From Phosphitispora fastidiosa (GTDB lineage: Bacteria > Bacillota > Thermincolia > Thermincolales > UBA2595), in assembly GCF_019008365.1 (NCBI RefSeq), contig NZ_JAHHUL010000004.1, forward strand, positions 124,001-188,000: a stretch of DNA of 64,000 nucleotides, read 5' to 3'. Shown piece after piece: positions 7,497 through 61,045 of this stretch. Below the pieces are notes generated by a model that was given only the letters and a program-made list of their open reading frames with translations, had not been told where the DNA came from and made no database searches. The stretch's first letter is position 1; every line of letters starts with the position of its first letter. The position numbers and the translations under genes were made by a program.

Positions 7497-8021
7497 CAGA
7501 AAGTAAAAATCCTCCCCTGAAAAATCACCCGGGAGGACCCTAATATTAACCGCTGATATTCACGTTAATACAAAATGAATATAAACAGGAATACCCGTCT
7601 CAATTAAAAAGACATAAAGACCCCCTGGCAGGATTTCCTTGCATTAAATTTTGGATGCCGGTTTTTAATTGGTTCTTTGAGCCGCAACTAGGCGCAGCAT
7701 CCATAAAAATCACCCCAGATGAAAAAATTTTGACCAAAACTACAATAAAAAGTAAAAGTTTTTTATTTGACCTCCTTTATTTTACACCTTTCAATAACAA
7801 AAAACAAGTAAGAAGTACTGTGAACCAGATAATATAGATATGAATGACTAGATAAAAAACAATTGTCCATTTTGGTCATTTTAGGCTGAATATGCTTCAA
7901 TTCGGGATGTCAATACTCAAGCAAGGTAGTCGGAGGAGGGTGACTTCCTGCTGTTGGAGGTTAAAATTTCAGAATATGTAAACAATATTGTGGTAAAATA
8001 TATCTCACGGAGGGGCACGTA
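7497..8021. other. Intergenic region between mgtE and the cyclase gene
   Basis: This is 525 bp of AT-rich sequence without a convincing gene. A short inverted repeat (CCTCCC/GGGAGG, 7508-7536) follows mgtE but lacks a T tract, so it is at best a weak terminator. A 60-codon open frame at 7655-7837 has no ribosome site. Before the next gene there is GGTAAAATATA (about 7992) and a good ribosome site CGGAGGGGC. No known riboswitch was recognised. Confidence 0.5.
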
Positions 8022-8711
8022 ATGAAGATTCCACAATCGGTCAGTACGGAAGCCAAAGAAAAAATAATTGCCCACCTGTCTAGGATTGTTGAAGCCGCAA
8101 AGGCTACTGAAAAGCTGCTGGACAAGAAGGCATCATGTGAAGAAATTTTCCGCAGCTTTACTAACCTCAAAGAAACCACCGATGAGGTAGAAAGCCTGCT
8201 TCTTACTTATCAGTTAGAGAACTGTCTCCTTCCCAGCCTGGGGCACTTTGAGGGAGTTGTGGAAGCGCTTAACAGGCTTGTTAAGCGAAAATATGGGGCT
8301 CTTTTAGTAATCGAGCGGATTAGTGACCTGTCTCCTTATATACGTACCGGCACACCTATTGATGCACTTATTACAGCCCCATTAATCGAAAGCATCTTTT
8401 ACCCGGGAAACCCGCTTCACGACGGGGCTGTAATAATCAGAGAAAACCGGCTTGCCGCAGCAGGGTGTGTACTCCCGCTTTCCCAGAAGACCTTATTTGA
8501 ACATGGTCAGCCAATGGGCATGCGGCACAGGTCTGCATTGGGACTGACAGAACTCACAGATGCTCTGATTATCGTGGTTTCTGAAGAGACCCAAAGAATT
8601 TCCCTGGCCCTGGGAAGCCATCTCTACCGCCTGAAGAAAACTGCAAACCTTTGGGCTAACATCCACGGGGCCACCCAGGGAAAACCCCCGGCATCCCCTC
8701 TGTTGGTCTAG
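8022..8711 (+). CDS. Diadenylate cyclase (DAC/DisA_N domain), CdaS-like
   Basis: The 229-residue protein should make the second messenger c-di-AMP from two ATP. The catalytic signatures of DAC domains are present: HDGAVII near residue 139 and MRHRSALG near 168. The N-terminal 85 residues form charged helices (the YojJ-like regulatory region) and there is no membrane segment, so it resembles the soluble, sporulation-linked CdaS rather than membrane-bound CdaA or DNA-scanning DisA. The start follows CGGAGGGGC. It is a monocistronic plus-strand gene, convergent with the glycosylase gene that follows. Confidence 0.88.
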   Translation: MKIPQSVSTEAKEKIIAHLSRIVEAAKATEKLLDKKASCEEIFRSFTNLKETTDEVESLLLTYQLENCLLPSLGHFEGVVEALNRLVKRKYGALLVIERISDLSPYIRTGTPIDALITAPLIESIFYPGNPLHDGAVIIRENRLAAAGCVLPLSQKTLFEHGQPMGMRHRSALGLTELTDALIIVVSEETQRISLALGSHLYRLKKTANLWANIHGATQGKPPASPLLV

Positions 8712-49179: not shown

Positions 49180-50625
49180 CTAACTCATCCTGCGAGTGGT
49201 ATGCCTGCGCCGCTTCGCCAGCTGGTTTTTGTGCCGTGCGATAGGCGGCTCCTCCTCTTTAGGGGGCTTGGTATATTGAACATGGTAAGCTATGAGCCCG
49301 TATCCGGCCCCATCATACCAGTGGTCAATGCTTGTCTCGGCAACCTTCTCAGAGTCTTTTTCATCCTCAATCTGCATCGGCAGGTATTCTACAAGAAACT
49401 TACAGGTATCGAATATCTGGACCTTGGCGGTCATCTTCTTGGTAACCTCATCATAATAAGGCTTCAGGTATTCGTGCCAAACAGCCTTCCTGAATTTCCG
49501 GTCAGTTATTGGCCGGATAAACCCGAACACTCCACCATCCTGGTAATAGTCAATCAGGGTTTTCCCTGACTCATCCCGGACGTGAGTTTGCCAGGCATCG
49601 TGACCGGCTACAGTGAAATCAATCTTTTCAGGTACCCATATCTCCTGACCAATATCATCAATATCAAGGCGTTTGGACAGGTCAACAACCTTCCGGGCCT
49701 GATCCGAATAAATAACCTTGGGGGCATTGTAATCCCTGGTGTATTCCCTGTAGATATAGACAATACCATCCTCACTAACAGCAAACCAGTACCACGCAAA
49801 CGGGTCAGCATATCCATTATCCAGGCTGCGCCAACGCCGCCAGTGTGCCGGTATCGGAAACGGCTTGCATACATGGATATCATGGGAGAACTCTTCAAAG
49901 GCCATGCCTTCATAGATGTCCCAGTCACCAAATAAATAAGCCTTCCTTTTGTCTTTAGGAAGGTTCTCTAACCTCTTGACATAGTTGGGGTCATTCTTCA
50001 TCAATACTTCGTTGTCATAAACCTTAGCAGGAATAAAAGCTATCCTGTTTTTGGTTACTGGGTCCCGGGCAAGGTCTTTACCGTAGTTTGTGGCTGAGAT
50101 ATATCTTTTCTTTACCCACATATGCCCGATATTGCCAGGGTTACATGTTCCCCGGAACCGGGCCGGGAAACCTTTGGGGCTCCGCAGACACGAGAGAAGT
50201 ATCTGAATTGATTCTTCCTCATGCTTGGTTAGCTCATCAACACCAACCCAGTCCATGGACCGGCCATCATACCGGGCCGCATCTGATTTGTTTCGGATAA
50301 ACCGGAATTTTATCTTAGTACCATTGTAAACAGTAACAACGTGCTTGCCTTCGTTGTATGAGTAAAGTTCTTTAGGAACCTTCTCTTTCCACTCTTTAAT
50401 GATGTTGGCTTCCAGATCATCGTATGTCTCCCGGAACAGGTACATTTCTGCCCCAGGATATTCAAGAGCATATGCCAGGGCCTCCATGACCAGACCGCAG
50501 CTCTTACCGCCGCCTTTTGCCCCGCCATACACCGCCTCTTCTGCCGGGCAAGAATGGAATACTTCCTGTCTCTTATTGGCTTTATAAGGGACCGATACCC
50601 TAACTTCACTTTGTGGAAGGGCCAT
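49180..50625 (-). CDS. Terminase large subunit
   Basis: This 481-residue protein is the packaging motor: an N-terminal ATPase with GGAKGGGKS (Walker A, residues about 34-42) and DWVGVDEL (Walker B, near 125), then a C-terminal RNaseH-like nuclease with the acidic motif in VGVSEDGIVYIYREY-type segments and DAWQTHVRDE. The start overlaps the small-subunit stop (TAATG). It leads the late operon towards portal and capsid. Confidence 0.95.
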   Translation of the reverse strand: MALPQSEVRVSVPYKANKRQEVFHSCPAEEAVYGGAKGGGKSCGLVMEALAYALEYPGAEMYLFRETYDDLEANIIKEWKEKVPKELYSYNEGKHVVTVYNGTKIKFRFIRNKSDAARYDGRSMDWVGVDELTKHEEESIQILLSCLRSPKGFPARFRGTCNPGNIGHMWVKKRYISATNYGKDLARDPVTKNRIAFIPAKVYDNEVLMKNDPNYVKRLENLPKDKRKAYLFGDWDIYEGMAFEEFSHDIHVCKPFPIPAHWRRWRSLDNGYADPFAWYWFAVSEDGIVYIYREYTRDYNAPKVIYSDQARKVVDLSKRLDIDDIGQEIWVPEKIDFTVAGHDAWQTHVRDESGKTLIDYYQDGGVFGFIRPITDRKFRKAVWHEYLKPYYDEVTKKMTAKVQIFDTCKFLVEYLPMQIEDEKDSEKVAETSIDHWYDGAGYGLIAYHVQYTKPPKEEEPPIARHKNQLAKRRRHTTRRMS

Positions 50626-56598: not shown

Positions 56599-57045
56599 TC
56601 ACCTTCCCTTTGTCCAGGCATCCCGCAGTGAGGTCTGCTCTGCAAATACCCCTCGAGGCAGCTCACCTTCCACTCTGCCCATAGCAGATACCTGAAGGAG
56701 TTTAATCAGTTGTTCCCGGATAGGGTCCAGCCAACGGGTTTTGGTATCCTGCCACTCTTCCGGTGTGTTTTCGCCTGGCAGCAGTTTAAGTCCACCGGTC
56801 TTATTTTGTGCCAACCCTGCCCCGCTGCACCTGATCCCGTGGAGAGTGCTAAACACGTTAGGAGTTTCCGGGAACAATTGCTTACTATTTATGAGCATGT
56901 TTTCCCAAAAAAGATGATCATTTTTTAAATCGCTGCGGGGGTCTATTGTGTTTTTTTCTTCTGTAACATTAGATGTTACAGAATTTTCGCCTGTTTTTAT
57001 GCCTGCTTTTTTCTTTTCTAATAACCGTGAATACCTGTCAGACAT
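56599..57045 (-). CDS. Phage protein next to the iteron array, unknown
   Basis: A 148-residue protein (MSDRYSRLLEKKKAGIKTGE; later TPEEWQDTKTRWLDPIREQL). It lies directly downstream of the repeat array, and its own 5' coding region holds a palindromic pair of the same TGTAACA element (56962-56980), so repeat-bound protein might autoregulate it. It could itself be the repeat-binding protein; this is only positional. Confidence 0.6.
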   Translation of the reverse strand: MSDRYSRLLEKKKAGIKTGENSVTSNVTEEKNTIDPRSDLKNDHLFWENMLINSKQLFPETPNVFSTLHGIRCSGAGLAQNKTGGLKLLPGENTPEEWQDTKTRWLDPIREQLIKLLQVSAMGRVEGELPRGVFAEQTSLRDAWTKGR

Positions 57046-57484
57046 AGGTTTTCACCCCCTTTCATATACCCCCTGCATAATTATTAATAATCTCTATCGT
57101 GTAACATGTGTCTGTTACACATGTTACGCAGTGTTTTCAAGGTGTTTAACCGGTGTATTTTTATCCATGTTACAAATGTTACACAAATGTTACACCCTGT
57201 TGATATGATTTGCCTTTTACATATAACTGAGTTTTGTATACCCAGCCAGGGTATCTGTAACATTTGTAACAGTTTTTTGGGGGGTATATATTTATTTTTT
57301 ATAATCATGCAAAGTGGACAAGTTTATTTTTGTTTTGGACATGCCCTATAAGTTACCAAGAAATTTTTGCCCTTTAAAATATGTTACAAATGTTACACCC
57401 CCTGCGAACCCCTTGTTTTATGCGGTTTCCGGCTGTAACATCCTTGTAACAAACTTGTAACATTTGTAACATTCCCATGTTACA
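56962..57484. repeat. Iteron-like array of TGTTACA/TGTAACA
   Basis: I count about 17 copies of the heptamer TGTTACA or its complement (one, at 57122, is TGTTACG). Plus orientation: 56974, 57113, 57122, 57168, 57177, 57188, 57382, 57391, 57478. Complement: 56962, 57100, 57256, 57265, 57434, 57445, 57456, 57465. Neighbours are mostly 9 or 11 bases apart (TGTTACAAATGTTACA type), and blocks alternate in orientation. An AT-rich stretch with ATATATTTATTTTTTATAAT lies at 57284-57303 between blocks. Beside the primase operon this looks like a replication origin or a cooperative operator. No gene lies in 57046-57487. Confidence 0.8.
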
Positions 57485-57487
57485 AAT

Positions 57488-58162
57488 CTATCTGTTTGCC
57501 TTGAAAAACGCTTTTGCGAATCCCGGCGGGGTAATCGCTCTTATCTCGGCCCGTGTTAATTTTAAGTGCTTGTATTCCGGTGGACATATCGGGGATACCA
57601 TTCTTCTACCGTTTCTACTGCCTCTTGGATATCGCACTGATAGGTTTTCGGGTTTTTCTTTAATTATCGGTTTTGGAGGATTAAAATATCCCCATAAATC
57701 CGTAGGCTTAATTCCTTCATCTCCGAATTGCCATTGCTCAAAAGTAAAAGCAGGTTTCCCTAAAAACTGTCTCAGTAATCCAACAGGGTTTTCCATGGCC
57801 CAAAACTTTAACTTACTGTGATTATAGAATCTACAGTGCCATATAATTTTAAGGCAAGCCTCCACCAATTTCATTGCGCTTTTTAAATCCCTTGGCTTAT
57901 TTCCTTTGGCTAAGGAAAATTCTGTACAAGGTGGAGCGGCTAAGATTCCATAAACATCATCATACAACACACAAAGTGTGTCTCGATAGTGCACGTCCTG
58001 CCGTATGAATTTCATGCCATAGGCATCGAATTCAACTTCAGTAACATCCCATTCCGGCAGCGTAACCACCCTCACATCATACCCTGCTTCCGCATATGGC
58101 CGGCTCCAACTGCCCGTACCGCCACACAGATCTAAAACAATTTTCTTTTCAATCTTGTTCAC
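57488..58162 (-). CDS. C5-cytosine-methyltransferase-like protein
   Basis: A 224-residue protein with a motif I-like VLDLCGGTGSWSRPYAEAGY, a PPC motif (GILAAPPCTEFSLAKG, near residue 77) and an ENP motif (FWAMENPVGLL), the order of Dcm-type enzymes (ENV is usual). The target-recognition region is short. It may methylate phage DNA against restriction. It starts 3 bases after the primase gene stop, so it is co-expressed. Confidence 0.8.
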   Translation of the reverse strand: MNKIEKKIVLDLCGGTGSWSRPYAEAGYDVRVVTLPEWDVTEVEFDAYGMKFIRQDVHYRDTLCVLYDDVYGILAAPPCTEFSLAKGNKPRDLKSAMKLVEACLKIIWHCRFYNHSKLKFWAMENPVGLLRQFLGKPAFTFEQWQFGDEGIKPTDLWGYFNPPKPIIKEKPENLSVRYPRGSRNGRRMVSPICPPEYKHLKLTRAEIRAITPPGFAKAFFKANR

Positions 58163-58165
58163 CCC

Positions 58166-61045
58166 CTACACATCCATCGTTGGCGGGTATTTTGCCCGGA
58201 CCTTCTCTGCCAGCTCCTGAATTGTCTCCGTAGCACTATTTATATCCACACCTATAACCCGACACGGCCCCTGCCCCATCCTGATGGTTTTGGCCACCGG
58301 CAAATAATACTGCTCGTCCTTCAGGTACTGTATGATAGAAGTGTAGTCAAAAGGTTCCCTGCCGGTCTTTCTTCGGTAATGGATAGTCCATGCTTCATAT
58401 AGTCCCTTCAACCAGATATACAGCTTGTCCCCTGACACCTTGATAAAGTTTTCGCCGAACTGCCCTTCTACAAACATGTAATGGACATCATCCCAAAATT
58501 GGTTTAACATGTGCTCCTGCTCACCGGTCTGCCTAATTTCCTGGCAGGAAATCTCAACCCATTCGATAAACGTATCATCTTCAAACACTGCTGCCTCGAA
58601 CGCCCCCGCACATATGGCCCAGTTTTCTGCGGTTCTGTCGGACACATCAAGGGCTGTAAGAAACTTTTTAATTCCAGATATTCTATCAAGGACGGTGGGG
58701 AGTAGTCTCTCGTAATTGGTGATAAGGTATCTAACAAAACCGCTGAATTTACGGCAATGTCTATTGATCCATTCAAATTGATTGTCAGCGTCAATACTCT
58801 TACGTTTGTTTGTGCTAATTTGGAGAGGAACAAGCCGTGTAAACAATCCATTGTCGCGCGGTAACTCTTCGCCTGAAATAGCAATTGTAGAATTGACAGT
58901 AAAACCTCGTGTTTGAAATGCTGTTGCTGTACCTTTTCCAGACAGCTGCCGGTTATATGCACTACGAAAGAACCCATCTTTTTGCGTAACCTTCGTTTCA
59001 TTGCGGTACTCATCAAACCAAACACCGAGACTGCTGTAATATGATAATACCCGCGCGATATAGTTCGCCGTGGTCGTGTCGCCAATGGTAATGCCCTCCG
59101 TTTCGGTCCCGAAAAACGCCTGAATCCAGCGCATAAACGTAGACTTGCCTGATTCCCGTTTACCGTGAGGGAACAATATCGGGTATAGCTTGTACCGGGC
59201 AAAGACATCCTTTGAGAATATAGTACCCACTACCCACCCGATAGCCATATATGCCTCATACCCGCCAATCGTGTCATATAGCTTCCTGGCTATGTCCTTG
59301 ATGTTAACCTCACCTTCGTAAAGGCTTGGTATAGCATCCTCCACCGGCTCACCCCTGGGGCCAATCTGAAGGCTCTGGGGCTTATATCCTTTGCCGTTCA
59401 GCCAGATAATACCGTCATTGTCCGGGTACTTCACTTCACCGTCTTTAATGGCCATGTTTCCGAACAGCCAAAGCCCGTTATCTAAATACCCAATTTTCTC
59501 TGGCATATAGATAATTTCGCCTGTGTCCCTCATAAACTCATACTCCCATATTAAAATCAAATCTTCCGCCCGGCCCTTGAACAGGTAGTTACCTTTGCCC
59601 AGGCAGAACTTTTTAAACGAATCTAACCCTGCCATGTCCCCAGGATCCATAGTAAGTGTTTCTGACCGTTCACTGTGCTTATTCACAAACTCAACGTTTC
59701 TGATAACTCCGGAAGGAGTGTGAAAGCTGGAACGGATATTGATGACAAAGTTGGAGATAATCTGCTCATATTGCTCCCCGCCGTTCCGTGTCTGCCTGGT
59801 TACGACATACTGATTAAACTCCCGCTTAATGGGCAGCGTACCGGCGAAAAAACGCTCCTTTTTTCTTTTAATAATCCGCAGGGCTTCATCGGGCAACTGC
59901 CCCAGGTAATCCTCCGGAGGCACGGCTGCATTAATAACTGCTAATATTTCATCCCTGGTATGTCCCTGGGCCATGGCCATATCAAAATCAATCTTACCAT
60001 CAACCCGCCATTCGTCCAGCAGCGTCCCCACCTGTGATATGATTCCTGCGTTATTCAGATTATATGCCGTGATATAGGCCCAGAATTGAGTATCGTACCT
60101 CTTGTCTGCCCGGGGTTTATAGTTTGAATGGGCCGGATTATCCTTGACTTCGTTGTCAAAGATAACCGTGGCTTCTTCCACTCCCAGCCTGCGTAAAACT
60201 TGCACCATGCGATCAAAATGCTTCCGGCCAAACGATGATATCCCCGGTTCGGCCAGGGCGGGTATGCCCCACTGTTGAAGGGCACCGGCCTTGAACTCAC
60301 CCTCCGTAAGAACAATATGCTTTGGGTCTTTGCCGTGAAGAAGGTACGGGCAATACAGATGTGCCGGGAAGTTCTCGAATCCTATTTTGTGTGGCCGGAT
60401 GTGGTAGATAATATTTTTCTCGCTTATGTATGGGATCAGCGGGATATCTTGAAGTAATTGCTCTTCAATAATAACTGAATTATTAACCTCTTTGAGTATT
60501 CCAGAGCTAACCAAGTCTGTCTTGGAAAAATCCTTCCGCAGCTTTTCAACAATAGCTGTGACATGCTCCCCACCAGACCTATAACGGAGCAGGTTTATGG
60601 TTTCGTCCGTAAAACCCCGTTTGACTTTAAACTCTTCCCGGTGCTTATCTGTTAGCGGCAGCAGGGAGAAGAATTTCTCATAGATCTGTTTCGTAATATC
60701 CGGGAGGTCAACCGGTTTCTGTTCTTCCGGAGACTTCTTCTTGCGCGGTTTCCTTGTCCTTGGTTCATCCTCAATCCCGAGCATCTTTTTCATTTCTTTG
60801 ACCGCAGCCTTATTATCCGTATTCTTTATTTTTGCGTAAAAAGTTATGGCATTGCCTGATTCATCGCACTTCCAGCACTTCCAAAGGCCTGTTTGCGGAT
60901 TCAGCGAAAAATGCTTCGGGTCATGGCAAAACGGGCACACACAGGACCAGGACTTACCTTTGCGCTTAACAATTGTAACCCCGTTCTGCTCAAACCATTG
61001 TGGTATATCTAATTGTGAAATAATGCTGTCTAAATCATTTGCCAA
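58166..61045 (-). CDS. Primase-helicase fusion
   Basis: This 959-residue replication protein has a CHC2-like zinc ribbon at residues about 33-65 (CVCPFCHDPKHFSLN, LWKCWKC), a primase part, a TOPRIM domain near 240-310 (HIVLTEGEFKAGALQQWGIP, then VIFDNE), a middle region, and a C-terminal helicase with HGKRESGKSTFMRW (Walker A, near residue 636) and GVWFDEYRNE. It should prime and unwind DNA at the phage origin, possibly the array at 57.0-57.5 kb. It starts at TTG after AAGGGGTGA. Confidence 0.88.
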   Translation of the reverse strand: MANDLDSIISQLDIPQWFEQNGVTIVKRKGKSWSCVCPFCHDPKHFSLNPQTGLWKCWKCDESGNAITFYAKIKNTDNKAAVKEMKKMLGIEDEPRTRKPRKKKSPEEQKPVDLPDITKQIYEKFFSLLPLTDKHREEFKVKRGFTDETINLLRYRSGGEHVTAIVEKLRKDFSKTDLVSSGILKEVNNSVIIEEQLLQDIPLIPYISEKNIIYHIRPHKIGFENFPAHLYCPYLLHGKDPKHIVLTEGEFKAGALQQWGIPALAEPGISSFGRKHFDRMVQVLRRLGVEEATVIFDNEVKDNPAHSNYKPRADKRYDTQFWAYITAYNLNNAGIISQVGTLLDEWRVDGKIDFDMAMAQGHTRDEILAVINAAVPPEDYLGQLPDEALRIIKRKKERFFAGTLPIKREFNQYVVTRQTRNGGEQYEQIISNFVINIRSSFHTPSGVIRNVEFVNKHSERSETLTMDPGDMAGLDSFKKFCLGKGNYLFKGRAEDLILIWEYEFMRDTGEIIYMPEKIGYLDNGLWLFGNMAIKDGEVKYPDNDGIIWLNGKGYKPQSLQIGPRGEPVEDAIPSLYEGEVNIKDIARKLYDTIGGYEAYMAIGWVVGTIFSKDVFARYKLYPILFPHGKRESGKSTFMRWIQAFFGTETEGITIGDTTTANYIARVLSYYSSLGVWFDEYRNETKVTQKDGFFRSAYNRQLSGKGTATAFQTRGFTVNSTIAISGEELPRDNGLFTRLVPLQISTNKRKSIDADNQFEWINRHCRKFSGFVRYLITNYERLLPTVLDRISGIKKFLTALDVSDRTAENWAICAGAFEAAVFEDDTFIEWVEISCQEIRQTGEQEHMLNQFWDDVHYMFVEGQFGENFIKVSGDKLYIWLKGLYEAWTIHYRRKTGREPFDYTSIIQYLKDEQYYLPVAKTIRMGQGPCRVIGVDINSATETIQELAEKVRAKYPPTMDV

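Follow-up and report, generated by a model that had tools for sequence, protein, structure and literature searches.

An iteron array downstream of a primase-helicase gene as a putative prophage replication origin

The window, the whole 64-kb stretch of DNA that we analysed, carries an array of TGTTACA heptamers which, judging from sequence comparison, a structural model and analogy with known replicons, is probably a prophage DNA replication origin (probability approximately 0.86). The same reading had been offered in a preliminary description of the window, and it is supported by the predicted fold of the neighbouring initiator, by the position of the array 3' of the initiator gene in a relative, by the dyad of repeats around an AT-rich core and by the co-variation of the repeat with the wing of the initiator. 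Against it stands the presence in the window of a methyltransferase-like gene between the initiator gene and the array.

The heptamer array and its neighbouring genes

The array comprises 16 exact TGTTACA/TGTAACA heptamers at positions 56962-57484 (523 bases), with starts at 56962, 56974, 57100, 57113, 57168, 57177, 57188, 57256, 57265, 57382, 57391, 57434, 57445, 57456, 57465 and 57478. Two further copies contain one mismatch (TGTTACG at 57122 and TTTTACA at 57215), giving a total of 17-18. The entire window holds 23 exact heptamers; 100 dinucleotide shuffles of it contained no more than 19 and on average 8.5, an average that corresponds to approximately 0.07 heptamers expected in 523 bases. 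Thus the earlier statement that about 17 copies could not be due to chance was borne out, as were those of a predominant spacing of 9 and 11 bases between neighbours (9,11 / 9 / 9 / 11,11,9) and of an AT-rich stretch within the array (Table 1). The blocks, described earlier as alternating in orientation, are indeed opposed, but the orientation of a single heptamer depends on its central base only, since TGTWACA is a 7-bp odd palindrome. Read in the orientation of the primase, the spacings were 9, 11, 11, 43, 9, (117) and 9, with the distance across the core in brackets; the degenerate TTTTACA follows at a further 41. This array was the only place in the host genome with tandem heptamer pairs.

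Table 1. Features of the putative origin and of the adjacent genes in the window
Feature	Position	Strand	Remarks
Putative replication origin	57100-57484		Opposed blocks of 14 exact TGTWACA iterons, together with TGTTACG (57122) and TTTTACA (57215)
Outer iteron block, initiator side	57434-57484		57434-, 57445-, 57456-, 57465-, 57478+
Inner iteron pair	57382-57397	+	9 bp apart
AT-rich core, probable unwinding element	57272-57381		110 bp between inner pairs; 72% A+T, like the core of L298 (74% A+T)
Inner iteron pair	57256-57271	-	9 bp apart; mirror of 57382-57397
Outer iteron block, far side	57168-57194	+	Three copies, 9 and 11 apart
Two accessory heptamers within 5' part of next gene	56962-56980		Encode VTSNVT
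Initiator, 959 aa	58166-61045	-	Zinc-ribbon/DnaG-type primase (residues 1-401) and SaPI-Rep/Cch-like helicase (403-952)
C-terminal winged helix of initiator	58190-58444	-	Residues 868-952; predicted iteron reader
Hypervariable wing	58232-58300	-	Residues 916-938; carries RMGQGPCR
DNA methyltransferase-like gene (PHROG 757)	57488-58162	-	Between initiator and origin
148-aa small protein	56599-57045	-	No known family

With the minus strand, the order is primase-helicase gene, methyltransferase-like gene, array and the gene for the 148-aa protein; a terminase large subunit gene lies at 49180-50625. Neither Pfam nor PHROG gave a match to the 148-aa product, which as the sole query found no viral relatives either. 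Twelve distinct relatives of the initiator locus have its gene after the array. This arrangement, together with the heptamers on either side of the gene start, four of which are retained there in the close relative L298 (see below), would also suit an operator for the operon starting with 56599-57045, bound by a phage regulator or by the initiator in the role of a repressor only. However, no promoter or terminator above chance was found and, in the mapped relatives with other repeat words, no iterons were seen about the start of the next gene, L298 excepted. Furthermore, the main array lies 3' of the initiator gene as a dyad around an AT-rich core of near-constant length (~100 bp), and its repeat word tracks the initiator wing, all of which makes an operator improbable. 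On the reading of the array as an origin, the autoregulation of the 56599-57045 gene suggested earlier is possible, in that the initiator might affect its transcription via the heptamers at the start of the gene. No Rfam family was matched. A 13-pair hairpin of inverted heptamers at 57099-57129 appeared terminator-like in a simple scan, in which the count of such hits was no higher than expected by chance.

Sets of many short iterons, some direct and some inverted, resemble partition sites, and the array had also been considered as a centromere-like site, at which a ParB- or omega-like protein would act to maintain the element like a plasmid. This suggestion found no support: no partition family (Pfam, PHROGs) was detected among the adjacent genes scanned, several of which encode small proteins without a family match, the terminase and other phage genes point to a phage, and the repeat co-varies with the initiator helicase. 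We regard a centromere as very unlikely beside a prophage origin. The GC skew, proposed as a check on the origin, gave it no support, as the skew showed no switch at the array and could be produced by gene orientation alone.

The initiator protein and related replicons

The primase-helicase contains a CHC2 zinc ribbon according to Pfam and matches PHROG DNA primases. In an AlphaFold2 model (alignment of 26 sequences, mean pLDDT of 84.9), residues 112-401 matched the RNA-polymerase domain of DnaG (Z of ~21), and residues 403-952 matched SaPIbov1 Rep (PDB 8tch; Z of 23.5 with 451 residues aligned) and SCCmec Cch (PDB 5dgk; Z of 22.6), with Foldseek E-values of 8e-12 and 5.5e-14. Both fold alignments extend to residue 951-952 and thus cover the C-terminal winged helix, which in the model consists of helices 879-894 and 901-909 and a hairpin at 920-929. 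The fold matches suggest that, in the initiator, a DnaG-type primase is joined to a self-loading helicase resembling Rep and Cch. As it has no Pfam DUF927 match by sequence, it would be a remote member of the Rep/Cch (DUF927, MCM-like) class by fold only. The locus thereby combines several attributes of a Rep/Cch-type replicon, namely the predicted initiator helicase fold, the C-terminal winged helix and iteron sets flanking an AT-rich region.

According to PMC7581432, SaPI Rep origins follow rep immediately and carry iterons that the C-terminal domain recognizes, and a putative origin downstream of the Cch2 gene is bound by the C-terminal domain of Cch2. The window is similar to the SaPI rep-ori (SaPIbov1 Rep, 8tch) in having a predicted MCM-like self-loading initiator helicase with a C-terminal DNA-binding domain and a putative iteron origin on the 3' side of the gene, which in SaPIs follows directly. 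It differs in the DnaG-type primase fusion, in belonging to a prophage with its own terminase, in the iteron TGTTACA and in the methyltransferase gene that parts initiator gene and array. SCCmec Cch/Cch2 (5dgk) likewise has a helicase with a winged helix fold and downstream iterons, bound by the C-terminal domain of Cch2, whereas the origin of Cch2 contains three AAGTG repeats, and the available part of PMC7581432 describes no dyad of many heptamers. In PICIs of Gram-negative bacteria the origin also lies downstream of the primase gene pri (PMC10111431), but these are satellites rather than phages with their own terminase. Plasmid pRN1 has its origin 3' of orf904, a primase-helicase with a C-terminal winged helix, but uses a 100-bp stem-loop in place of iterons (PMC4234260). 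In the PLE satellites of Vibrio cholerae, the DNA-binding domain of RepA covaries with the iterons and modules are swapped; unlike the window, the initiator is a RepA_N protein, with no helicase mentioned in the available part of the study, and there are three semi-palindromic iterons of ~30 bp (PMC8263062). An iteron origin directly after a Rep helicase (SaPI, SCC) and initiator-iteron co-variation (PLE, PMC8263062) are already known. In the open-access literature we found neither the fixed geometry nor fast word switching in phages described, nor the reappearance of TGTTACA next to different helicase classes, and a literature search for the heptamer returned unrelated papers only.

By comparison with these systems, we propose that the winged helix of the initiator would bind the TGTTACA iterons, probably via its wing and recognition helix. 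The opposed iteron blocks would place two helicase assemblies, presumably hexamers, face to face across the AT-rich core of ~100 bp, which ATP-driven action may then melt. The attached DnaG-like domain could prime synthesis, leading to replication that would be bidirectional.

Conserved geometry and a changing repeat word

Loss of the array from close relatives that keep the flanking genes, which would have spoken against an origin at this site, was not observed at 89% identity. The initiator of one viral contig, L298 (also retrieved as L327), is 89% identical with that of the window, and its array is that of the window, with the same block order throughout the putative origin and a similar AT-rich core. 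In L298 the array begins over the initiator stop codon and the methyltransferase gene is absent, suggesting that the gene in the window is an insertion between initiator and origin (or, alternatively, that it was deleted in L298). Heptamers lie before the start of the L298 homologue of 56599-57045 and one lies inside it (7897-8028). L298 also has another small ORF (7627-7875, 82 aa) on the opposite strand between the origin and this homologue; the ORF is absent from the window, and the segment from the origin to the next gene thus looks like an insertion spot.

We scored an array as present when it exceeded all of 50 shuffles, and compared the 3' flank, the 5' flank and the interior of the initiator genes. 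In the window family, arrays were found on the 3' side in 22 of 29 cases, on the 5' side in none of 28 and inside the gene in none of 30; the seven relatives without an array at this sensitivity were mostly distant. Iterons directly 3' of the initiator gene, as in Rep/Cch-type replicons, are thus found in L298 and in these 22 relatives, and in the window with one gene between. At 50-60% identity the array was kept in the same place and with the same build, but the TGTTACA word was usually replaced by another. The typical layout was 9, 11, 23, 45, 8, (~101, AT-rich), 8, 45, 23, 11, 9, as in L341 (GTGGACA; 9, 11, 23, 45, 8, (101), 8, 45, 23, 11, 9) and L331 (TGGGACA; 20, 11, 22, 45, 8, (101), 8, 45, 12, 11, 20). 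Other words were CGTTCCA (L332), TGAGCCA (L330), AGGTAAC (L340), GGTTAGA (L351) and TATTACA (L339), whereas L333 retained TGTTACA.

A second family was obtained by scanning with phage initiators of the DUF927 (Rep/Cch) type, the profile of which matches 8tch (3e-55) and 5dgk (1e-32); a mixed alignment of DUF5906 proteins was dropped as a query because it was too diverse. The scan gave 80 loci, 76 of them with enough flank, and arrays were detected on the 3' side in 70/76, on the 5' side in 6/76 and inside the gene in 1/80. The words included GTCCCAC, GTGGAAC, GCGGAAC, GTCGCAC, GGTTACA and TGTAACA, with core distances of 78-124 (peak in the 90s) and linkers that mostly measure 41-47, less often 30-33 or 53-57. 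When the linkers were compared with a 10.5-bp helical phasing, the cluster at 41-47 outweighed the others and no single period stood out as the best fit. Thermoanaerobacterium phage THSA-485A has the same layout with the word CGGTTAC, and Ruminococcus phage phiRg507T2_3 a smaller array of GTAACAA; the annotation tables of both list no origin. No array was found 3' of the primase gene in Listeria phage P40, Lactococcus bIL310, Vibrio D69 or Microcystis Mea-Yong924-1. In two DUF927-type initiator genes (L257, 2-1903, and L277, 1744-3633) heptamers encode N-terminal VTGVT/VTSVT runs, and in L277 the main array lies within that coding part, showing that iterons can sit in coding sequence.

Within the initiator, conservation in the window family is lowest in the wing (residues 916-938), with a mean identity of 22% compared with 52-54% elsewhere. 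L333, which has the TGTTACA word in common with the window, carries RMGGGPRRV in its wing where the window carries RMGQGPCRV; the two are 50% identical in the wing and 69% in the helicase, whereas L340, with AGGTAAC and an equally close helicase, shares only 17% of its wing with the window. We correlated wing identity with iteron similarity while controlling for helicase-core identity (partial correlation), and assessed the result by permutation, which removes helicase similarity and leaves part of the shared ancestry. In the DUF927 family, r was 0.66 (p=0.0005) for the wing, compared with 0.15 (p=0.0065) for the remainder of the winged helix and 0.12 (p=0.08) for an N-terminal region; in the window family it was 0.24 (p=0.009) for the wing and not significant for other regions. 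Moreover, the last wing position in the DUF927 family is R/K in 10 of 11 initiators with GTTAC-type words and in 9 of 50 with others (Fisher p=9e-6, with word classes set post hoc). These sequence comparisons suggest that the repeat word and the tip of its predicted reader change jointly. A similar R-x6-R wing was also observed at the end of several initiators that are linked to TGTTACA and belong to different classes.

TGTTACA arrays beside other helicases

Triple TGTTACA heptamers numbered at least 120 in the viral and genome collections, compared with 42 in all for the reversed-heptamer control. Many of the genome triplets of a single orientation, 11 bp apart, look like transcription-factor boxes, and on account of these and the control triplets only multi-block arrays were used. 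Among the matches listed, such arrays lie 3' of or beside DUF5906, DUF927, DUF3987, VapE and AAA_25 genes in many phyla; these helicase classes replace one another in mobile elements (PMC5862659). The array of L057 (8, 11, 23, 43, 8, 28, 101, 45, 24, 10, 11) has similar linkers and core, and so have those of L090, L110, L036 and L266.

The occurrence of one word beside unrelated helicases could be explained by a widely shared bacterial protein that binds the array. However, homologous initiators have other words in the same position and the word follows a phage-coded wing, with which a host factor would not switch, so that a host protein is very unlikely. Tentatively, and as a joint proposal that may well fail in part, we suggest that one origin blueprint (opposed blocks, ~45-bp linkers and an AT-rich core of ~100 bp, on the 3' side of the initiator) is shared by different classes of initiator helicase in phages and mobile elements (Rep/Cch-type, D5/DUF5906, perhaps DUF3987 and RecA-fold), in which the word would switch fast, a short wing would read it by a decipherable code and TGTTACA would have been reached repeatedly. 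If so, unannotated intergenic arrays would become recognizable origins in many uncultured phages and predict their initiators, and the natural pairs of wing and short word could be used to learn the recognition code. The fast word switching may reflect pressure for replicon incompatibility or for escape from origin-targeting nucleases such as Odn (PMC8263062).

Searching named phages with the array by blastn gave chance-level matches only (Vibrio phages CHOED and D69, and Shewanella phage MSO-5). Fourteen related viral contigs have in common a TGTTACA array with spacings of 9, 11, 13 and 70; the genes beside it encode an exonuclease (PHROG 298), a VRR-NUC-like protein and the small subunit of a terminase, and no initiator helicase was seen next to it. 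Lone triplets at exactly 11 bp, in one orientation and outside long ORFs, were seen at nine loci among others, mainly in Clostridia and Bacteroidota, and are probably PhoB-type transcription-factor boxes rather than origins. Finally, four matches in a genome of the same phylum (G061) belong to arrays of 10-11 heptamers on contigs C14 and C25, the spacings of which are mirror images, as if they were two copies of a related element.
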